Virus record (IMG/VR): IMGVR_UViG_3300010883_000301
Location: 1-28,541 of that record
Direction: 5' to 3' (one strand)
Length of the DNA: 28,541 nucleotides
From: a virus
Shown: positions 1,976 through 14,469 of the stretch, in pieces
How the letters are laid out: each line of letters starts with the position of its first letter
Numbering within the stretch: position 1 is the first letter of the stretch
Notes under the pieces: generated by a model
The model's input: only the letters and a program-made list of their open reading frames with translations
What the model was told of the DNA's origin: nothing
Database searches by the model: none
Made by a program: the position numbers and the translations under genes

Positions 1976-4900
1976 TTAAGCACATGTTGTTGCATTTTTC
2001 CAATGTGGATAGGTTCGTGAATATTGTGCTACATTAAGTCCTGTAGTACCAGTTGCTCTTGCATACCATCTATCATGAAATAGTTCATCTCTAAAATCTT
2101 GATCTATAGATCCTTTAGTTGTATAATATGCTCTAACAGTACCATCAAATTCAATTCCTGTAGTACTATATATAACCGCACTAACACTTGCAGAATTAGT
2201 ACATGCTTGTGTTGATGTATTTGTGGCTGTAGCCTCATTTGAGTGCCCATATGTAGTACCAGCACCATGCACAGCAACACCCATTCCTAAAACACCACCT
2301 GCTGTTGGATTTGCACTTGCACCTGTTACTGAAGGTAGGCAAAGTAATTTCCCCATCTCATTAACAAATGAAGTATATTCATAACCAAAGTAATCATCTA
2401 TATAAGGTACTACTGTTATATTAAGATCTGATAATGGTGCTAAGTTATTTAGATTAACTGTTGCTACAGTTCCATTATATGGATTTGCATTTGTAACAAG
2501 ATTAGCTTCCCAGTTTGCAACAGCTTCTACATTTAAATAATCACTTCCAAATCTATATGCATTATATTGAGATCCAATAAGAGCTGGAGTTGTATTACCT
2601 GCTGGAGCATTACATGCTAAAATCATTTGTCTTATTAATGCTTTATCTTGTCCATCTACACCAGTATGTAATCCAGTTTGTTTTGGTATTACGTAATGTC
2701 CATCACATCTATATATTGCATTTTCAAGATTAGTATAAGTAGCATTAAGACTATTAGCAGTTGACCATACTGATTCTCCTACACCACCATTGGCTGTTGT
2801 ATTTCTATTATTATCTACAAGTATATTCATTATATCATCATAATCAGCTAAATATCTTGTAGTTGGAGCAAGTGGTGCTGAAGCTGCTAATGCTTCTGTA
2901 TATAATGGATAAGGAGTACCACCACATGTAACTGTATCTGCTTGATCAATAAATGAGAATAACATCATATTTGATGCTAAATTTGCTACTGTACCAGTCC
3001 ACCATCCAACTGGTGTAGTAGAAGGAGTCCATGTTTGTGCAATAGTTGACCATGTTCCTGTAGATGTAAGTGAAAGTCCAGCACCACGCATTGCTATAAT
3101 TTTATGATTTGATAAATATGCACTTGCAGAACCCAATCCAACCCCCACCATATCACAATTAGTTATAGGAAGAATATATAATTGACCTGTATATCCAGAA
3201 TAAGTAGTTTGAATACTTGTATGTGCAGCTATCATTGCAGTCTTTATATTAAGACCTTCAGTTTCTGTATAAGCATCAGTATCAATAAATACTACTAAAT
3301 CAGTAGCTAAAGACTGAGGCCAAAAACCTCTTGATAATGATGTTGTATAATTACTAGTTTTCGCACCTATAGTTAATGCTGCTGAATTTGAATCTGTATT
3401 ATTAAAAGCACCAGACTGTAAAGGTGCATATGTAAACTGTTGTGTCTCAGCAGGGATTGCATTTGGTGTAAATGATGTAACACCAAAACTTGCTACACCT
3501 ACATTATATGTTAATGCTGAAGCTTGAACACTATTACCATGTGCAATTTGATAATTATAATTTGCACTAAAAGCATATTGTACATCTGCACGTGGAACCC
3601 AGGTTGTCCATGCTGCTTGACTTATATTTACTTCATCACCTACACATGAAAAATATGTCTGTGGTATAATTGGTACACTAGTTGCTGTAGTATTTCCTTC
3701 AGCATATACAAATAAATTCTTTCCTCCATCAGATGTAATACCATCAATATAACGCCATCCATCTCCTAGTGTGTTTGTACTTCCATCTAGTCTTGCTGTA
3801 GTAACTCCATTTGTCACTAATGATTTAACTGGATTATTATAATCCAATGATACACCATTCATAGTAATCTTACCTGCTGAACATGGTGTTAAACTTTCAG
3901 CCCATATTGTATTGTTTCTTAATACTCCTGCTACTGAACTATCAGAAGTTGTGAATCCTCCAATATAAATATCACCCATATTTGTTCCTGGATTTATAGA
4001 ATCATCACAAGCAATAGGTGTAAATGAACCAGCTACTCCATATTGAAGTTCTGTTGCAACTGCTTTATAATCTGCTGCTAATACTTCAAGATCTGTACAT
4101 GTTGTTCCTGTTGTATTAAATGATTGTTGAGGACATAAATGATTAAAGTTATCTGATCCTGCTATTGGAGTTCCGTAAGATATTTGAATTAAATATGCTG
4201 ATCCAGGTGTTAAATTTGTAAAGCTTCCTGTCCAAGTAGATCCTGGATTACTATTAACTTGACTAGTAATTACTGAACCTGCAGCATTTAATAATTGTAT
4301 TTGTGCATTCATTGTAGCAGGTAAGTACTGTGCATTTACAGTCCATGATATAGATGTTAATCCTGGAGTTCCCATAGTTAATTGTGGACAAATATCTGTT
4401 GAAGTTATTGTTTTAGTTTGAGTATTAGCACATTCCATTCCTACACCATTTGTAAAGCAGAATTGAACTTCAACTTCAAATGTTGCACTACTACCATTTA
4501 AACCATTAAGAGTATATGTTTGACCAGCAGAATTATTTTGTAATTGATGTATTGATGCATAATGAACTTGATTACTTCCTTCATCATCTGTTATTATAAC
4601 TTTAGAACCATTAGATCTATCACAATCATAAAAAGTTGTTGGAATAGTAGATGATGAAAAGTTTATATTCAGTGAATTAATCTGTCCAGGATCACCTTGA
4701 ACATTAGCAGAAAAACCATAAATAATATCTTTACATGCAGTTGGTACTACATCAGCTATTAAACTTTCAAGTGCTTGTCTCATATCATTAATAGTAATCC
4801 AAGCATTTGTAAATGATTGTGCTAAACTATTAGGATTTAATATAAAACCATTATAGGTACTCATATCTCCTACACCATTTAATTTCTTTGAACTTGCTAA

Positions 4901-5620
4901 AGATGCAGCTTGATAACCTATTGATGTTGCTAAACTTGATTGAGGTCCTGTTCCTTCTTGGAGTCCACAAAATGCTCTCTCAACTGCTATTAAAGCTGTA
5001 CTCATATTTGTTAATCTACCTGGAGTTCCAACACAGGTAGTTAAAATTTGTTTTTCTGACTTATTTGTTTTATTTCTTTTTTCAGTATTTTCTAATGAAA
5101 TAATTCTTCCTTCATGATTTGCTACCTGGCCTTGTATTATTGAAATCTCTGATGTTGTTTCACTTATTCTTGTTCCTAATAATGTAGCATATTGTTGTAA
5201 TGGTAATGCTCTAACTATAGTTGCTGTATTAGGGTCTTGATATTGCAACATTGATGGTAAACTAACAGGTGTAGTTAAAACATCTCCTTGTCCAAATTCA
5301 GATTGATTTGCCACACGTGCTTGAACAACATTCTCTATTATAAGATTTTGTAATTCTGTTTCATTATTAGCATGTCTAGCTTGTTGGCCGTTTCCATTTT
5401 CAAGACCTTCTTGATTTATTGCTGCAAATTTTGAATGTGTACCTGAACCTCCTGCTAATTTACTTAAAGCTGTTAGTTCTTCACATAGTTTAGCTATTAC
5501 ATCACTTATAGTATCACCATGACATATGTCAACACAAGGTAAATCTGGTCCTTGCCAAATTACACAATTTGATGATGTATTATCACATCCACCAGTTTTA
5601 TTAGAGTTAAAAGGAATCAT
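1976..5620 (-). CDS. Large fibre-like virion protein with FN3-like and vWA-like regions
   Basis: A 1214-residue, Ser/Thr/Asn-rich extracellular-type protein with no signal peptide or membrane segment. Residues 12-50 are a Cys-containing head (VIWQGPDLPCVDICHGDT) followed by a helix. I read this as a virion anchor shared in outline with the 184-residue neighbour. Residues 150-180 could form a short coiled coil, as in trimeric fibres. Residues 300-505 are beta-rich with Cys-bounded FN3-like segments. From about 773 there is a von Willebrand A-like pattern: strand LVVFIDTDAY with a DxDxY variant of the MIDAS motif, a helix, strand MMLFSFIDQAD (885-895) and YLADYDD (923-929). The same order of blocks occurs in the 2917-residue protein upstream. 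The role is probably host attachment at the tail tip or head fibre. It has its own phage-type promoter 30 bases before the ATG. Confidence 0.8.
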   Translation of the reverse strand: MIPFNSNKTGGCDNTSSNCVIWQGPDLPCVDICHGDTISDVIAKLCEELTALSKLAGGSGTHSKFAAINQEGLENGNGQQARHANNETELQNLIIENVVQARVANQSEFGQGDVLTTPVSLPSMLQYQDPNTATIVRALPLQQYATLLGTRISETTSEISIIQGQVANHEGRIISLENTEKRNKTNKSEKQILTTCVGTPGRLTNMSTALIAVERAFCGLQEGTGPQSSLATSIGYQAASLASSKKLNGVGDMSTYNGFILNPNSLAQSFTNAWITINDMRQALESLIADVVPTACKDIIYGFSANVQGDPGQINSLNINFSSSTIPTTFYDCDRSNGSKVIITDDEGSNQVHYASIHQLQNNSAGQTYTLNGLNGSSATFEVEVQFCFTNGVGMECANTQTKTITSTDICPQLTMGTPGLTSISWTVNAQYLPATMNAQIQLLNAAGSVITSQVNSNPGSTWTGSFTNLTPGSAYLIQISYGTPIAGSDNFNHLCPQQSFNTTGTTCTDLEVLAADYKAVATELQYGVAGSFTPIACDDSINPGTNMGDIYIGGFTTSDSSVAGVLRNNTIWAESLTPCSAGKITMNGVSLDYNNPVKSLVTNGVTTARLDGSTNTLGDGWRYIDGITSDGGKNLFVYAEGNTTATSVPIIPQTYFSCVGDEVNISQAAWTTWVPRADVQYAFSANYNYQIAHGNSVQASALTYNVGVASFGVTSFTPNAIPAETQQFTYAPLQSGAFNNTDSNSAALTIGAKTSNYTTSLSRGFWPQSLATDLVVFIDTDAYTETEGLNIKTAMIAAHTSIQTTYSGYTGQLYILPITNCDMVGVGLGSASAYLSNHKIIAMRGAGLSLTSTGTWSTIAQTWTPSTTPVGWWTGTVANLASNMMLFSFIDQADTVTCGGTPYPLYTEALAASAPLAPTTRYLADYDDIMNILVDNNRNTTANGGVGESVWSTANSLNATYTNLENAIYRCDGHYVIPKQTGLHTGVDGQDKALIRQMILACNAPAGNTTPALIGSQYNAYRFGSDYLNVEAVANWEANLVTNANPYNGTVATVNLNNLAPLSDLNITVVPYIDDYFGYEYTSFVNEMGKLLCLPSVTGASANPTAGGVLGMGVAVHGAGTTYGHSNEATATNTSTQACTNSASVSAVIYSTTGIEFDGTVRAYYTTKGSIDQDFRDELFHDRWYARATGTTGLNVAQYSRTYPHWKNATTCA

Positions 5621-5715: not shown

Positions 5716-8700
5716 TTATATAAACGTTACACCTATATCAATACATCCTGCAACAACTGTATATGTATTACTTGCAACAAACGGATCATCACAAATAATT
5801 GAACTTGCTCCCAATGAATTATTATTCACTATAAAGGTACCAGCAGGCATATTAAGATTATTTCCATTTTTTATATTAAGACTTGTTAATAGATTATCAT
5901 GGGCATAACAAGAAGTCATAACAACATTAGCACTTAAATCAAGGGTTGTGAGTTGATTATTATCACACTTTAATTCAGTTAAAGCAGTATTCTGAATTAC
6001 ATTAAGACTTCCAATTGAATTGTTACTACAATACAACCAAACTAAACCAGTATTAGTAATTACATTAAGGCCTGTGAGGAGATTATTTTGACACTTCAAA
6101 TACTCTAAAACAGTATTAGTAGTTAAATTTAAAGATGTGATTTGATTATTATAACAAGCTAAAGACCATAAAGCAGTACAACCATTTACATTAATACTTG
6201 TAAGGCTATTATAAATTACATTTATTTGGTATAAATTAGTAAGATTACTTACATCCAAAGTTGTCATATTATTATTAGCACAAAACAAACTAGCTAAAGC
6301 AGTAAAATCTTGAATACCTGTTAAATCAGAAATACTTGAATTATTGAGACTTAAAGTAATTATACTACTGACATCAGTTGTTAAGCACCAATCAGTTGTA
6401 GGACCACCTGAGAATGTAACACTATGATTAGCTATTAATTCGTTTTGGAAATTAGTATCAGGTATATAAGTGTAACCAGCATTACAACCTGCACTGAAGG
6501 ATGTCTGAGCATCCTTACTTGTCCAGTTAGCATCTGAGTAAACTACATCATCTACAGTAACACATGTTAATAAAGGATTGGTTGTAGAATCATAGTTAGC
6601 AGTAGGAACATTAGTATTATTACCATTTGCCATATTAAGTTCAGTAAGTGCACAATTTTTAGTATCAATTTCAGTTAGAGCAACATTATTACTTAAATCA
6701 AGACTAGTTATTAACGGATCATTATAAGTCCATAAAAGTTCTAAAGCACTATTAGTACTTAGATTTACACTTGATAGTACATCATTATTACTAACCTTCA
6801 TTGATTTTAAAGCAGTATTCTGAGTAGTATCAATACTTGTCATTGCAGGATTTTCATAAGCATTTAAATTTTCTAAAAGAACAAGAGTACTTATATCAAC
6901 ATTTGTCATTCCACTCGTATTATATGATATATCTAATGATATTAAATTAACAAGAGCACTTACATCAATAGTTGTATATACGCATCCTTGTACACTCAAA
7001 TAAGTTAAAGTAGTATTATAACTTATGTTAAAAGTTGTCAAAGTATTCCAACTAGCATACAAAGTATCTAAAACAATAAAATCTTGTATACCTGTAAAAT
7101 CAGTAACACCCAAACCATTAAGATTTAGAATTGTTATAGTATTAATTGTACTTGTTAATACATAATCACCAACAAATGTTTTTCCAAGTCCTGTTAAATA
7201 AGTTTGGAAAGCACTATCAGGTATATAAGTCCAGAGACACAAATCAGTTGTACTAAATGTAGTTCCTGCATCAATAAATGCTGGTGCAGTCCAGTTAGTA
7301 GTAGAATAAGAAGTATCATCAACAGTGATGTTACTAAGAAGTGGACAACCAGTAAAATCTAGTGACCAGCTATTTAATAGTATATTTGAATTATTTCCAT
7401 TTTTAATATTAACATTTTCAAGTAGTTCACATCCTGCCGTGATTACCCGTGAAAGATTAGATTGTAGATCTAATTTTAAACATTGAATATTAGTTTTGTA
7501 TAATGATGGTGTTAATAATTCAGAACCAATCTCAACAAACCCTAGATTAATATTTGCATCAACATCTAATTCTGTTATGGCAGGACAAGCTCCAAGTGAT
7601 AATCCTTCTAAAAGAATATTGTTAGTGAAATCAATACCCGCATTAGTAAATGCATTATTATATCCAACAAAAGTAGTTAAGGCAGTATTAGTACTTGTAT
7701 CAACAGCTGTTATTTTATTATTATCTATTTCTAATGTTAATAGAGCCGTACAACCAGTTGTGATAAGAGTTGTAAGAGAACTTACTGCAGGATATGCCCA
7801 AGGAGCACTAATACCATTTGCCCAAGTTTGATTATGACAATTAATATGTTCTAAAGCAGTACAGTTAGATGTATTAACGCTTGTAAGAAACGCACAAGCA
7901 GGTATCCATAATGTTTTTAATGTAGTATGATTTTGAACATCCATAGTTATTAAAGGATTCATACTAGCTTCTAGATAAGTTAGAATAGGAGTAACACTTG
8001 GATTTATATTAATTGTAGTAAGTTGATTACCACCTACATAAATCTCATCCAGTAAAGGATTATTAGTGAAATCAATACTTGTAATATTATTACTTTGTAA
8101 TTTAAGAGTAGTTAATAAAGGGTTACCACTTAAATCTATTGCAGTAAGACTATTATTAGGAATATTAATTGTAGTTAAAGATGACATACATTCTAAACCT
8201 GTTGCATCAGCAATAGGTGGATCTATATTACCATCATAAGTTATTCCAGTTATTCCAATTAATCCAGCTGTTGCTGTATTAAAAGAAGCATCAAAGAAAA
8301 CTCCAAATGTAGTTGTTAAATATGCTCTAAAGTTAGCATCTGGAATATTACATATTGGGAGGGCACAACTATTTGGTATACATACTGTGTTATATACATT
8401 TACAGCATCTGTACTTAACCAAGTACTATTTGAATGAGCTACATCATCAACAGTTATACAAGTAAGAAGTGGAGTATCCATAGTATTCCACTCAGAAGTT
8501 AGATTTATTCCTGCTATATTATTACCATTTTGTACATTTAAAGTTGTTAGATTAGGATTATGATCAGCATGACACTGAGTTAAAACAGTAGCATTAGATA
8601 AATCTACACAGTCTATTAAATTATAACCAAACTGAATTCTATCTAAAGCAATATTATTAGTTACATCTAAAGTTGAAATTTGATTAGAAGTACATACAAA

Positions 8701-9978
8701 ATGAATTAAAAGAACATTAACATTTACATTAAGAACTGAAAGTAAATTATTAGATATTTGGAAAACAGTTAAAAGAACATTATTAGTTACATCTATACTT
8801 GTAATTTGATTAGAAACACAATACAAAGAATTTAAAGCAGTATTCTGACTTACATCAAGGCTTGTGAGTTGATTAAAACTACAATTCAAACTACTTAAAA
8901 CTGTATGAGGGGTTACATCAAGGCTATTAAGTAGATTAGAATTTACGGTGATGGAAGTTAAAAGAATATTCTGACTTATATCCAAAACACCTATTTGATT
9001 TGATGGAGCTTGTAAACTATATAAAGCAGTATTAAACTGCAGGTTAAGACTTGTTATTTGATTATATCCAACTTTTAAAATTTGTAATCCTGTAAAGCAT
9101 TCAATACCTGTCATGTCAGCAATACCATTTGGATCAGGTATCATTGTCATAGTTAGATCTAAAGTAGTCAATGCAGCAACATCTGTATCAAGTACAGTAG
9201 TACCAACATATGTAAATGCAGGATATTGAGTTTGTAATGATGCAAAGAAGTTAGCATCTGGTATATTACAATATGTTGCTGCAACACATGGTGATCCAAA
9301 TATATCTCCAGTATCAATAGAAGTTGGTGCAGGCCAATTTGTAGTTGACCAAGCTGTATCATCTACACTAATACAAGTAAGATTAGGAGTATTTATAGTT
9401 ATGAATTGAGGACTATTCATATTTGTATTATTTCCATTTGTTACATCAAGGAAACTTAATGGAATATTATCATTACAATGTAAATAAGTTAAAAGTGTTT
9501 GATTAGTAAGATCAAGTGTTGTAATTTCATTCCAAGAACAATCAACAGTAGTTAAAGCGGTATTATTACTTACATCAAGGCTTGTTATTTGATTTTGGTT
9601 ACACCACAAATAAGTTAAAGCAGGGAGCGTACTTACATCAAGTGTTGTGATAAATTGATTACCATTACAATTCAAATAAGTTAAAGCAGTATTAGCACTT
9701 ACATCAAAGCTTGTAAGTTGATTACCTCCTACATCCACATGCTGTAAAGCTATGTTTTGACTTAAATTAATATTTGTAAGAAGATTATTACTACATCCTA
9801 ATATTTCTAAAGCAACAAAACATTCTATTCCTGTAAGGTCTGTAATAGATGGAACATAATAACTAACATTTAATCCAGTAATTGTATTAACATCATTTAT
9901 AGGTATAGTACCAGTATATGGACCTTGTGGTTTATGACCTAAGTCCATTAATGCTTGCTCAAAATTATTATCTGGAAT
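5716..9978 (-). repeat. Five tandem leucine-rich repeat cassettes
   Basis: Each cassette starts with IPDxxFxxxL, at residues 1498, 1736, 2042, 2416 and 2669 (coordinates 9978, 9264, 8346, 7224, 6465). It continues with LRR units of about 21 residues of the type LxxLDVSxNTxLTxLxCxxN. Cassettes are about 238, 306, 374, 253 and 249 residues long. All five contain NGNN near the end. Four then carry (C/N)(I/V)xVDDxxxS followed by NW or TW, and the fifth has a degenerate IICDD. At the DNA level the repeats remain similar: an identical 18-base segment occurs at 8848-8865 and 9568-9585. This favours gain and loss of units by recombination. Confidence 0.85.
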
Positions 9979-12900
9979 ACTACATACATCTGCAAGTGAT
10001 ACAAAATCACATATATTTGAATAAACAGGATTACTACCACATCCTGCTATATTATGATCTATTATATACGCTCTCCAATAGTATTCTGCAACTCCCAGTA
10101 ATCCTGTTGCTATTTCTGTTATTAAAGTATTTACAACAGCTTCACCTGGATATGTACTAGGAGTTGCTGGTACCATTATAGTTGATGTACTTCCTCCAGC
10201 AACTATATTATCTAATGTTATATCTGCATTAGTACCCCATACTATTCCCCATGTTCCAGTATTAGCAGTTGTTAATGCACCCAGTGAAGTGTATTGATAA
10301 ATTAAATTATAAGATGTTAATGAACTACATGTAGCTAACATACATTCAATTGTAGGACATGGATCAAGTGTAGTAAATATTTGATTAGCATTCCAATCTG
10401 AAGTTAATATACCACAAACACTTCTAACTTGGAATTCATATTCAGTAAGAATTAAAAGTCCTGTTAAACTATATGATGTACCAGTTGCGCCTGTAATTTC
10501 TATCCATGTATTAGGAGTAGTGGTATTTACTTTTCTATATCTTATATCATATGTTATAGTAGTTTCTGAACTATTAGTAACTGTCCATTGTAATAGTACA
10601 CCTGTACCTGCTGCAGTTGGTATAACTTGTAAATTACCAGGTGCATTACATGTACATTGTGGATCTGGTACTGTACATACTGGTTCTGGACATAATTCTG
10701 TTGCAGTTATTAAAAGTCTTTGTTGAGCACAATCTCCTGATGTAGTAAAACAATCACATATTTGTGCTGTATGTTCTGTATTAATAGATGCTTGTGAAAT
10801 TATATGTGTGTATCTTCCAAATTCATTTGTCTTACCAACATCTTTTCCATCTATATATATTTGATAACCTTCTATTGAACTTCCATTCTGATTTACTACA
10901 TCAAACACTAAACATTCAGTATCATTACATTGATATAATCCTAAAGAAAAGAAATTATTTAAATCACTTACTAATATATTAGGATCAAGTGTAGGTGTAA
11001 CAGAAGGTGATGTAAAATTACCACCCCATCCATAATGATCAAGACCTCCATATCCATATGCATGCTGGATTATAGTATTTGTTTCATTCCAATATATATT
11101 AGATCCTGCAATTTCAGCAGCAAGTAAAGTACCAAGAGTATTAACAGGTGCTGTACCTGTTAAAAAAGTACCATCAGGAGAAGGTCTATTACCACTTGTA
11201 ATTGGTCCTAATACAGATAATGGAAATGGTCTATGTGAAGAATATGGTCCAGGAGCACCAGGTCTAATAGGATATGCAAAACAATGCATTTTATGATTAC
11301 ATGATCTTGATGTAAACTCATTATATGTATCTATATAAAAATTATAATCTGCTTTAAATACATCTGCTGGGCCATTTTGACTTGCTAGGTTCCAATCATT
11401 AGCAGTACCATTTACACTTCCACTCTGATGATAACTATAATAATAAGAATTATTACTAACATTAGCATTATGTCCTTGTGCTTCATCAGCAAATATAACA
11501 ACAAGAACTTGTTCTGTTGCACAAGGAGGAGGAGGTCCATTCCAAGTAATACTAGGTCCTATAGGAGTATAAACTGCAGTTCCAGCAGTGTTTGCCCATG
11601 TATCACATTGTACACCTTTAGTAAAACTATCATAAAAGTATGCTGTACAATCACCATTTTGTGCCCAATCTTGGACTTGCTGAGTGTTACCCATTCTTGC
11701 ATTTGGGGTAGTTGTATCACCATGACATCCACATTGTCCAGTTGCTCCAGTATTCATATTTACACTAGCAGCACCACAAAATCTTGGTGGTGTATTACAT
11801 GCTGTTATAGCACTATTAGTAGAACAAGCTAATGTATTTGATTGAAAGTCACCTGAATTATTCCATGCACCCGTAATTGCTTGAATAGACCAATCAATCC
11901 ATCTTTCTCCAGCTATAATTGTATGATAATGATTACCTGTAAATCCATCTGCTTGTAATTGTTGTATCCATAATTCTGAAGCAGTATGAATATTTTGAGC
12001 TTGAACTGCACCCATTGATGTACCATCATAATAGAAATATATGGTTAGATCACCTTTTGGTATGAGGCCACATAAAGGATCTACCCAATTAGGGAATGTT
12101 CCTGCAGCAGGAGGTGTTCCAGGTACAAGTGGTTTAAATACTTCTCTTTCTATTTTATATCCTGTATATTCTTTTTCTTTTTTATCTTGCCAATAACATA
12201 AATATTTCTCTGATGCTATACCATCTAAAGTATTTTCACATGGACTAATCATACCAAATCTTTTAGCTTGGAAATGTTTATAAACATCATCAGCAAATCT
12301 TGCTTCTGTTTCTATTCTTTTAATGTCTGTATCTGTTAAGAATTCAGTTGGATCATATTCTCCATAAGCTATATCACAGGGTAGTTGAGGATGTTCACAT
12401 GTTCCATCATCACAACAAGCAGTGGCATTATAATTAGCAGCAGTAGGATCCATACATCCTGGATAACAACAAGTACCATCATCTTGGTTTGCAGATGGAT
12501 CATAATTACATGCAGTTGGATCAGTACAACCTAATACATCATAAGTACAAGGACATTCAGTAGGATCATAATATGAAGCACTTGGATCATAATTATTTGC
12601 TGCAGGATCATCACAACCACAATCACAAGCTACATCTGGATCAAAACTACAAGTACCTACATATATTTCTAATAAATATTCCATACAAGTACCTGGTGGT
12701 GTAAAATCATAACCGAATAAATTATATGGAACACCTTGTAAGGCATTTTGAAAATACGCATATCCTAATGCATCAGTTATTTGTATACCTAATGCTCCAA
12801 AATCTACACTAAAATTTGGAACTGGTAATCCACTTCCTAAATCTAATGCTTGTACAGTAATACAATTTTCCGTACTACTACATGAAGAAGTTATATTCCA

Positions 12901-14469
12901 ACCACTAGGTACTTGATATGTCATCATATCATTAAACTGTGTTGAGAATGGTCCTATTGTAAATGGACTTGCACTATATGTAGCTAATACAGGCCAAACT
13001 TCTGTTTCTGGTCCACCAACATTAAAAGCTCTTTGTGCTCCCCAATATGGGAATGTCCAATATACACTTGTATTTGTTCCATACGTTTCACCTAAACTAG
13101 CATTAGCATTACCTACTTCACTATTATATGGGTTAGCTCTATCACCAACGAATGAACCACCTCCATTTCCATTTACTTCTAATACTCTTAAGGAAGGACT
13201 ATCCCAACCTCCTGGCTCACTCATTACAGGAATTCCATCTTGGCTAAAGTCAGCATTATTAAGAGTAGGGTGATAATACTTTGAATTTGATTGAAAGACT
13301 CCTACTGGTGTAGTTGTACTAGTATTACCTGGATGTATTGCTGCAGCTACATGTAGTGCAAAACCCCATGTCTTAGCAGTTGACATCATAGTATTTGCAA
13401 TATATGGCCACATAACAGCATCCATAGTACCTCCACCACTTACATGATTATCTACTGCAGTTTTATGATCATCAAAATCAGCTTTCCAAACATTACCTCC
13501 ATCATTAATTATATCCCCACCAGCCATACAATGAGTATTAAATTCTTGAACATTTGGATATGAAGTTCCATTAACTGTAACAGTATTACCAGTACCTTCT
13601 TGACCATGATAACAACATGAAGCTTCATCATCAAATATTATAATTAGAATTTCATCTCCAGGTGCTGGAACAGGAGGTAAACCTAATGATGTAATTGTAT
13701 TTCCTGAATTAGTATTATTTGTAGTTAAACCTGCATCAGTACTACAATAAAAATCTGGAATAGTACTAGAATTATGTGACCAATTTAGTGTATCACCTAC
13801 TCCAAACGTAGCAACACTACCAAGACCATAACCATCCCAAGATGTTGTATCACAATCACCACTATAAAGTTGATTACCACCATTTAGATTAGTACCAGCA
13901 TTATTCATAGCACCTGTATATGTTGAGGTAGCCCAATCAAGCCATCTATTACTACCACCGCCAATTATAGTATGATATGCATCAGCATTAGATAAACCAT
14001 GCATCCATAACCAATTATCCATCCCCCAATATTGATTTTGACTATCAGCTACAGACTGTTGTTGATCTATACCTCCTTTATAGTATATATATATTTTATC
14101 GTATTTAAGGCCAGATGTTGTTACATTATTATAACACTCTTGAGCCCATACGGGTGGTACATCTGCACCATCCCATACAGCTGTATTATTCCATATACCA
14201 CACACCCATTGGAAAGTTACAGTTCCCCATACTACTGGATTTGAACCAACTTGAATAGCATTAAATTGATAATTAGCAGGCATACTTGCTGTTGGTAAGT
14301 ATACTGAATTATCTATTATAGTATCATTGAGAATACTTACATGATGAACAGCGTTACCAAATGCTAATGTTACTTCAACACCACCAGCATCACCACATTC
14401 AACACCATGACTTACATCACATTTAACATTTCGTAACCCATAACAATCTATCATTGGTGGTATTGCCAT
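5716..14469 (-). CDS. Giant multidomain host-adhesion protein (vWA-like x2, GCTDP, FN3, LRR x5)
   Basis: A 2917-residue protein. In order: an N-terminal region (1-120) that may attach it to the virion; a vWA/Rossmann-like domain (about 124-380); a regulatory-like beta domain (535-600); three GCTDPxAxNY-type repeats (618-692); a charged linker (700-790); a second vWA-like domain with a DGTSM motif (808-1070); a second regulatory-like domain (1184-1235); an FN3 domain (1273-1368) and an FN3-like domain (1371-1490). Five leucine-rich repeat cassettes then run from about residue 1498 to the end. The two A-like units are paralogous: both share YHTII, RW(L/I)DW, TGA(M/W)NN and IF.DEA. The LRR cassettes begin IPDxxF and contain NGNN, as in secreted flavobacterial proteins. 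Unlike those it shows no signal peptide. It sits between conserved virion genes, so I infer a structural receptor-binding protein. It starts 4 bases after a small Cys protein and is probably translated with it. Confidence 0.85.
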   Translation of the reverse strand: MAIPPMIDCYGLRNVKCDVSHGVECGDAGGVEVTLAFGNAVHHVSILNDTIIDNSVYLPTASMPANYQFNAIQVGSNPVVWGTVTFQWVCGIWNNTAVWDGADVPPVWAQECYNNVTTSGLKYDKIYIYYKGGIDQQQSVADSQNQYWGMDNWLWMHGLSNADAYHTIIGGGSNRWLDWATSTYTGAMNNAGTNLNGGNQLYSGDCDTTSWDGYGLGSVATFGVGDTLNWSHNSSTIPDFYCSTDAGLTTNNTNSGNTITSLGLPPVPAPGDEILIIIFDDEASCCYHGQEGTGNTVTVNGTSYPNVQEFNTHCMAGGDIINDGGNVWKADFDDHKTAVDNHVSGGGTMDAVMWPYIANTMMSTAKTWGFALHVAAAIHPGNTSTTTPVGVFQSNSKYYHPTLNNADFSQDGIPVMSEPGGWDSPSLRVLEVNGNGGGSFVGDRANPYNSEVGNANASLGETYGTNTSVYWTFPYWGAQRAFNVGGPETEVWPVLATYSASPFTIGPFSTQFNDMMTYQVPSGWNITSSCSSTENCITVQALDLGSGLPVPNFSVDFGALGIQITDALGYAYFQNALQGVPYNLFGYDFTPPGTCMEYLLEIYVGTCSFDPDVACDCGCDDPAANNYDPSASYYDPTECPCTYDVLGCTDPTACNYDPSANQDDGTCCYPGCMDPTAANYNATACCDDGTCEHPQLPCDIAYGEYDPTEFLTDTDIKRIETEARFADDVYKHFQAKRFGMISPCENTLDGIASEKYLCYWQDKKEKEYTGYKIEREVFKPLVPGTPPAAGTFPNWVDPLCGLIPKGDLTIYFYYDGTSMGAVQAQNIHTASELWIQQLQADGFTGNHYHTIIAGERWIDWSIQAITGAWNNSGDFQSNTLACSTNSAITACNTPPRFCGAASVNMNTGATGQCGCHGDTTTPNARMGNTQQVQDWAQNGDCTAYFYDSFTKGVQCDTWANTAGTAVYTPIGPSITWNGPPPPCATEQVLVVIFADEAQGHNANVSNNSYYYSYHQSGSVNGTANDWNLASQNGPADVFKADYNFYIDTYNEFTSRSCNHKMHCFAYPIRPGAPGPYSSHRPFPLSVLGPITSGNRPSPDGTFLTGTAPVNTLGTLLAAEIAGSNIYWNETNTIIQHAYGYGGLDHYGWGGNFTSPSVTPTLDPNILVSDLNNFFSLGLYQCNDTECLVFDVVNQNGSSIEGYQIYIDGKDVGKTNEFGRYTHIISQASINTEHTAQICDCFTTSGDCAQQRLLITATELCPEPVCTVPDPQCTCNAPGNLQVIPTAAGTGVLLQWTVTNSSETTITYDIRYRKVNTTTPNTWIEITGATGTSYSLTGLLILTEYEFQVRSVCGILTSDWNANQIFTTLDPCPTIECMLATCSSLTSYNLIYQYTSLGALTTANTGTWGIVWGTNADITLDNIVAGGSTSTIMVPATPSTYPGEAVVNTLITEIATGLLGVAEYYWRAYIIDHNIAGCGSNPVYSNICDFVSLADVCSIPDNNFEQALMDLGHKPQGPYTGTIPINDVNTITGLNVSYYVPSITDLTGIECFVALEILGCSNNLLTNINLSQNIALQHVDVGGNQLTSFDVSANTALTYLNCNGNQFITTLDVSTLPALTYLWCNQNQITSLDVSNNTALTTVDCSWNEITTLDLTNQTLLTYLHCNDNIPLSFLDVTNGNNTNMNSPQFITINTPNLTCISVDDTAWSTTNWPAPTSIDTGDIFGSPCVAATYCNIPDANFFASLQTQYPAFTYVGTTVLDTDVAALTTLDLTMTMIPDPNGIADMTGIECFTGLQILKVGYNQITSLNLQFNTALYSLQAPSNQIGVLDISQNILLTSITVNSNLLNSLDVTPHTVLSSLNCSFNQLTSLDVSQNTALNSLYCVSNQITSIDVTNNVLLTVFQISNNLLSVLNVNVNVLLIHFVCTSNQISTLDVTNNIALDRIQFGYNLIDCVDLSNATVLTQCHADHNPNLTTLNVQNGNNIAGINLTSEWNTMDTPLLTCITVDDVAHSNSTWLSTDAVNVYNTVCIPNSCALPICNIPDANFRAYLTTTFGVFFDASFNTATAGLIGITGITYDGNIDPPIADATGLECMSSLTTINIPNNSLTAIDLSGNPLLTTLKLQSNNITSIDFTNNPLLDEIYVGGNQLTTININPSVTPILTYLEASMNPLITMDVQNHTTLKTLWIPACAFLTSVNTSNCTALEHINCHNQTWANGISAPWAYPAVSSLTTLITTGCTALLTLEIDNNKITAVDTSTNTALTTFVGYNNAFTNAGIDFTNNILLEGLSLGACPAITELDVDANINLGFVEIGSELLTPSLYKTNIQCLKLDLQSNLSRVITAGCELLENVNIKNGNNSNILLNSWSLDFTGCPLLSNITVDDTSYSTTNWTAPAFIDAGTTFSTTDLCLWTYIPDSAFQTYLTGLGKTFVGDYVLTSTINTITILNLNGLGVTDFTGIQDFIVLDTLYASWNTLTTFNISYNTTLTYLSVQGCVYTTIDVSALVNLISLDISYNTSGMTNVDISTLVLLENLNAYENPAMTSIDTTQNTALKSMKVSNNDVLSSVNLSTNSALELLWTYNDPLITSLDLSNNVALTEIDTKNCALTELNMANGNNTNVPTANYDSTTNPLLTCVTVDDVVYSDANWTSKDAQTSFSAGCNAGYTYIPDTNFQNELIANHSVTFSGGPTTDWCLTTDVSSIITLSLNNSSISDLTGIQDFTALASLFCANNNMTTLDVSNLTNLYQINVIYNSLTSINVNGCTALWSLACYNNQITSLNLTTNTVLEYLKCQNNLLTGLNVITNTGLVWLYCSNNSIGSLNVIQNTALTELKCDNNQLTTLDLSANVVMTSCYAHDNLLTSLNIKNGNNLNMPAGTFIVNNNSLGASSIICDDPFVASNTYTVVAGCIDIGVTFI

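Follow-up and report, generated by a model that had tools for sequence, protein, structure and literature searches.

Do two adjacent genes of a crAss-like phage carry three copies of one domain? The question is raised by a 28,541-nucleotide window of viral DNA (positions 1 to 28,541 of IMG/VR record IMGVR_UViG_3300010883_000301), for which a sequence-only reading had proposed that a 1214-residue protein holds a diverged relative of two A-like domains in the neighbouring 2917-residue protein, and that this phage lineage multiplies the fold for attachment. The source of the window is a member of the Crassvirales, as its major capsid protein (PF23898, crassvirus major capsid protein; Pfam E = 1.1e-29), portal (phrog_6547, 9.4e-93) and terminase (phrog_6681, 2.7e-62) all found their crassviral counterparts. 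All large genes lie on the minus strand, including that of the 2917-residue protein (5716..14469) and, immediately downstream, that of the 1214-residue protein (1976..5620), an open reading frame confirmed as real; the genome's own muzzle gene is located outside the window. A phosphoesterase/exonuclease gene (phrog_704) occupies positions 92–1372; its TTG start as listed is probably 33 codons too early, because its relatives begin at a methionine equivalent to that of the internal MESLLDKIK.

The larger protein carries first the A-like domain D1 (residues 105–547; 12829..14157, minus strand), in which the first aspartate is replaced by lysine, and continues through cysteine-rich repeats, the A-like domain D2 (residues 792–1200; 10870..12096, minus strand), an FnIII domain and leucine-rich repeats. 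Pfam recognized the leucine-rich repeats and the single FnIII domain. D1 and D2 are plainly related to each other (blastp 2.5e-6 in one direction; hhalign 99.6%), and their relatives were found at 33 loci in each of two scans of viral contigs. A single scan of GTDB genomes with the D1/D2 profile returned eight pattern matches, none of which was confirmed, and hence gave no bacterial source for these domains. The surroundings of the domains vary. Repeats of the type GCTDPTACNYDPxAxxDDGSC lie between and after the two A-like domains and occur in many copies in contig L005 (2–7636); residues 603–670 match a virion structural protein of Synechococcus phage S-CAM3; and the leucine-rich repeats (PF12799, PF23952) close the protein in its C-terminal half. 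Orthologues are very unequal in length, with 2208 aa in contig L001 (2282–8905) and 1490 aa in L003 (4465–8934), the latter form stopping ahead of the leucine-rich part. In L050 (933–4478), the D1/D2-type domain comes in three pieces (residues 114–279, 683–821 and 881–1032), that is, with an insertion of ~400 aa inside the domain.

No family was recognized by Pfam in the 1214-residue protein, and tblastn against 50,697 phage records gave no match, either with this protein or with the relatives from contigs L027 and L021. Its N-terminal ~130 residues carry the conserved motif SSNCVxWQGPDLxCxxxCxGDTxSxV; a comparison of this N-terminus with 22 crAss001 proteins yielded no detectable match, and kinship with the crAss001 fibre protein gp22 was likewise undetected. 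The third domain, D3, lies toward the C-terminal side at residues ~770–1034 (2519..3313, minus strand), as delimited by hmmsearch, profile alignments and an AlphaFold model; the stretch singled out originally, 2550–3310, corresponds to residues 771–1023. The strings on which that reading relied are indeed present: LVVFIDTDAY at residues 775–784, MMLFSFIDQAD at 885–895 and YLADYDD at 923–929. On the minus strand, the model places strand b1 at residues 774–780 (3281..3301), helix a1 at 786–806 (3203..3265), strand b2 at 814–819 (3164..3181), strand b3 at 884–892 (2945..2971, within MMLFSFID), a helix bearing the DYDD motif at 921–934 (2819..2860) and strand b4 at 971–980 (2681..2710). In the alignment of ten D3 sequences, Asp780 at the end of b1 is invariant (10/10) and Asp926 of the DYDD helix is present in 9/10, whereas Asp892 of b3 occurs in 2/10 only. 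The D3 region is conserved among orthologues of the 1214-residue protein, and a scan of viral contigs found its relatives in 12 of them.

BLASTP gave no meaningful match between D3 and D1/D2, and thin profiles (five D3 and eight D1/D2 sequences) reached a best P of 0.009, which is insufficient alone, so that deeper profiles and bridging sequences were needed. Given profiles of ten D3 and 28 D1/D2 sequences, hhalign aligned D3 positions 10–59 to positions 16–71 of D12, the joint profile of D1 and D2 (score 34.9, P = 5e-4), and, collinear with this block, D3 127–181 to D12 188–251 (24.2, P = 0.019). The top score was reached in none of 299 column shuffles of the D1/D2 profile (maximum 23.1), nor was the collinear pair (0/299), and the reversed D1/D2 profile scored 16.0 against D3. 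The sequence-only reading was to be given up if neither profiles nor structures matched above background, and this did not happen. Because column shuffling destroys local secondary-structure patterns, a control with real families was added: when 26 gene families drawn from the same loci, including that of D3 itself, were compared with D3, D1/D2 was the best non-self match (29.9; next 20.3). The direct hhalign probability is only 31%. Alignments in the global and low-mact modes of hhalign were uninformative, and neither the D1/D2 nor the D3 profile gave a relevant match among PDB sequences.

Bridging copies were found in cultured phages. Starting from a remote relative of D2 on contig L041, tblastn led to structural proteins in the Cellulophaga phages phi4:1 and phi17:2. 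The domain in phi17:2 gp043 was picked out of 591 sequences by two profiles built without it: that of D3, with E = 8.3e-5, and that of D1/D2, with E = 1.9e-10 and only when the HMMER filters were off. Taken alone, the same domain scored 30.2 bits with the D3 profile, against 7.9 for its best shuffle, and 49.7 bits with the D1/D2 profile, against 10.4 (2000 shuffles were made, of which 802 and 896, respectively, received a reported score). The D3 of the window also matches phi17:2 directly (blastp, 24% over 159 aa, E = 8e-6 in a set of 40 sequences). A search with the phi17:2 domain reached a protein of Flavobacterium phage Fpv3 (E = 0.04), which, like gp043, is annotated as a structural protein. 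This protein matched the D1/D2 profile with E = 9e-6. Its match to the D3 profile is weak and broken into two collinear segments (E = 0.99 and 0.038), with E = 3.7e-4 for the protein as a whole; a D3 profile that included phi17:2 reached it with E = 9.1e-6. Combined into one profile, four muzzle-borne copies (those of phi17:2, of Fpv3 and of two contigs that are near-identical to the latter) aligned with D3 at a probability of 97.8% (P = 1.2e-12, 187 columns) and with D1/D2 at 98.1% (P = 1.2e-13, 244 columns), compared with 0.1% for an unrelated control. When the bridges were added to the D1/D2 profile, its match to D3 rose to 93.5% (P = 2.2e-7, D3 positions 10–60), the second block then being unreported. 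Against the bridges, certain D3 orthologues score lower, one of them no higher than background.

Because these intermediates match both sides, we take the homology as established: on the evidence of profiles, D3 is a diverged member of the D1/D2 domain family, belonging to one superfamily with D1 and D2 through significant matches, direct or via intermediates. Since D3 is related to both D1 and D2, the family has three members in the two adjacent genes, as had been proposed. The equivalences drawn between individual blocks fared less evenly. The first two stand firmly in the proposed register; the third (KADY in D1/D2, ADYD in D3) is backed by the direct profile alignment, whereas through phi17:2 its register is ambiguous and off by some residues.

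With respect to fold, the AlphaFold model of the D3 region (residues 738–1214) has a pTM of 0.70 and a modest mean pLDDT of 59, with core blocks mostly at 63–79; that of D2 has a pTM of 0.82 and a mean pLDDT of 76. Comparison of the element lists of the two models reveals a common core order, b1-a1-b2-a2 followed by an insertion, b3, a helix that carries the conserved DY motif, b4 and a further helix, and by this predicted order, too, D3 and D2 belong to one superfamily. Foldseek against the PDB returned no significant match for either model (best E 0.12 for D3 and 0.18 for D2). After VIA re-alignment, all but three of 50 rows for D3 were von Willebrand A (vWA)-type folds (Z 6.3–7.9). The 50 rows for D2 were likewise headed by vWA-type folds (integrin beta, Sec23, C2a and RGLG; Z up to 7.9), with six short-chain dehydrogenases or similar proteins and three SGNH-type esterases (Z 5.5–6.8) mostly lower down. 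The vWA status of these rows was assigned by protein name (Sec23/24, Ku, VWF A1, integrin I, TFIIH p44 and Rpn10, which we take to have this fold), leaving 9ya0_GB, 9v0j_D and 9c4f_I for D3 and 9ya0_GF, 7pks_f and 7bxd for D2 without a placed fold. The Pfam VWA families matched none of the 28 D1/D2 and 10 D3 members at E values up to 1. Since the tool flags Z values below 8 as common, we call the fold vWA-like rather than vWA; within that wording, the models and their best structural matches favour the A-like fold originally suggested, the predicted fold of both D3 and D2 being von Willebrand A-like. The accessible parts of the open-access literature on von Willebrand A domains in phage tails hold no description of the D1/D2/D3 domain. 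Among predicted viral structures, Foldseek with D2 pointed to a possible relative in an uncharacterized 1189-aa protein of Virus NIOZ-UU157 (BFVD A0A7S9SUN3; probability 0.94, E = 0.01, TM 0.43).

The putative metal site is less uniform than the fold. In D2 domain numbering, the 28 D1/D2 sequences share D24 at the end of b1 (24/28, the exceptions being four D1-type copies), T/S26 (24/28), S27 (24/28), T75 (27/28) and D204 after b3 (28/28); H58, H223 and D250 are, together with D204, invariant polar residues (28/28). D2 thus has a MIDAS-like set (D-x-T-S, T, D), from which D1 lacks the first aspartate. A canonical MIDAS (DxSxS, Thr, Asp) was found in none of the three domains, the spacing in D1/D2 being D-x-T-S and D3 keeping the first aspartate only: the b1 aspartate is present in all ten D3 sequences, and the position after b3, that of the third aspartate, is Asp in two. 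As a consequence, the FIDQAD of the window is not a conserved feature; its two acidic residues are Asp in 2/10 and 3/10 D3 sequences. The claim that D3 retains the acid motif of D1/D2 thus fails, and a conserved metal site formed by this motif in D3 was rejected. For D2, target binding through a metal ion at the MIDAS-like site is possible; D3, with the first ligand position only, would bind in a metal-free manner or serve as a scaffold.

Among related contigs, the modules come and go. D3 is present in L058 and L059, whose upstream gene lacks D2; conversely, L021, L024, L026 and L034 have D2 followed by a short neighbour (379–384 aa) without D3, and in L035 a clear D1/D2-type copy resides in the gene adjoining the usual D2 gene (E = 5e-78). 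In L058 (3248–7618), the segments on either side of the missing D2, PAWVDxxC ... VQVVTQNGTPVQGYEV, almost adjoin each other, and the upstream gene of L059 (7027–7653) encodes merely 209 aa; the upstream genes of both contigs are consistent with module gain or loss. In L005 (7630–8910), a 427-aa protein with the segments SNNHVLI and GDSGSALI, by eye resembling a trypsin-like protease, sits between the D2 gene and the orthologue of the 1214-residue protein, an arrangement seen in this contig. The proposed multiplication of the fold is in fact wider than the two genes of the window, relatives having copies in a muzzle homologue as well as in the 2917-like and 1214-like genes.

Two other accounts of the resemblance between D3 and D1/D2 have to be weighed against this picture. 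If D3 were unrelated, the similar blocks would reflect the common strand–helix–strand pattern of alpha/beta proteins, as the missing BLASTP match, the low direct hhalign probability and the unconserved acid motif of D3 might suggest. However, two bridge families match D3 and D1/D2 across most of the domain, the same muzzle-borne intermediate matching both significantly over overlapping residues, and the direct blocks score above all shuffles and all unrelated families, which makes chance similarity extremely improbable. A recent duplication of the neighbour's domain is also unlikely, judging from sequence relationships, and the specific version in which a copy of D1 or D2 moved to the adjacent gene in this lineage very much so. 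Gene adjacency favours it, as does the D1/D2-type copy beside the D2 gene of L035; yet the D3 of the window scores better against the muzzle-borne copies (38.5 bits, blastp E = 8e-6) than against the D1/D2 sequences, none of which gave a blastp E below 0.20, and D3 occurs in the two contigs without an upstream D2. Both observations favour an old superfamily.

What the domains do is suggested by the company they keep. By tblastn, the proteins in which the bridging domain resides have a homologue in a 1646-aa protein encoded downstream of the 1214-residue orthologue in L001, and a joint profile of these muzzle-type proteins matched the crAss001 muzzle gp44 (E = 1.1e-7 among 22 proteins, chiefly in the N-terminal segment) and Fpv3 (E = 9.7e-42, over N- and C-terminal parts). 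In the published account of the crAss001 structure (PMC10172136), the muzzle is placed at the tail tip, contact with the cell surface is suggested and variation in muzzle length is ascribed to insertions. From these relatives and their annotation, it is plausible that D1, D2 and D3 are host-contact or attachment modules, and their presence in some relatives and absence from others fits exchangeable parts of this kind. Both window proteins would then be tail appendage proteins, with the three domains as exposed modules touching the host surface. We assign a probability of about 0.7 to this overall reading, namely that D3 is vWA-like, is homologous to D1/D2 and to the muzzle-type domains, and has a host-touching role on a tail appendage.

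The same homology could also be accommodated by domains that are not adhesive and instead act as structural spacers or assembly domains of tail appendages, or that represent a degenerate hydrolase-like alpha/beta domain, which we consider unlikely. In keeping with such a role, esterases and dehydrogenases appear in the D2 list, a GDSL esterase is found among the Foldseek rows for D3, and the many invariant polar residues of D2, H58, D204, H223 and D250 among them, could be catalytic or structural. On the other hand, vWA folds top both VIA lists, the bridging copies reside in muzzle-type proteins, the tail tip of crAss001 being formed by its member of this family (PMC10172136), and relatives differ in whether they carry the module, as would be expected for host-range parts.

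Pursuing the adhesive reading further, we tentatively suggest, as a possibility that we hold to be rather doubtful, a phage-specific A-like superfamily that acts as a swappable host-binding head in three tail proteins of Bacteroidota phages, namely the leucine-rich-repeat protein, the 1214-type fibre and the muzzle tip. One branch would have a metal-dependent adhesion site in shifted form (D-x-T-S ... T ... D), parts of which the others would have lost. On this view, a single virion would combine versions of the fold that need a metal with versions that do not. Host recognition of Bacteroidota by environmental crAss-like phages is poorly known, and tying these undescribed metagenomic domains to one present in Cellulophaga and Flavobacterium phages in culture offers a laboratory system for testing a role in adsorption; annotators, in turn, gain a domain family where Pfam has none.

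Compared with known systems, the models of D2 and D3 show a predicted Rossmann-like order of strands and helices resembling that of von Willebrand factor A/integrin I-type domains (VWF A1, integrin alpha/beta I, the Sec23/24 trunk, Ku and C2a), but the family differs from them in having no sequence-family match and Z values below 8, in the D-x-T-S-M/L of D1/D2 in place of D-x-S-x-S, and in the missing third aspartate of D3. The domain at residues ~1784–2040 of Cellulophaga phage phi17:2 gp043 (AGO47576.1), of which the phi4:1 copy is near-identical, matches the profiles of both D3 and D1/D2 and carries the motifs FDTTSM and FIDES; it differs in being a compact form within a 2289-aa muzzle-type protein, whereas the domains described here belong to separate, putative appendage genes. 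Residues ~1430–1700 of Flavobacterium phage Fpv3 ANB40431.1 match the D1/D2, D3+phi17:2 and muzzle-family profiles, and likewise sit in a muzzle-type protein, but have the motif FDRSGS and a replacement of the aspartate after b3. With the crAss001 muzzle gp44, finally, the muzzle-type proteins bearing the bridging domain share an N-terminal segment.
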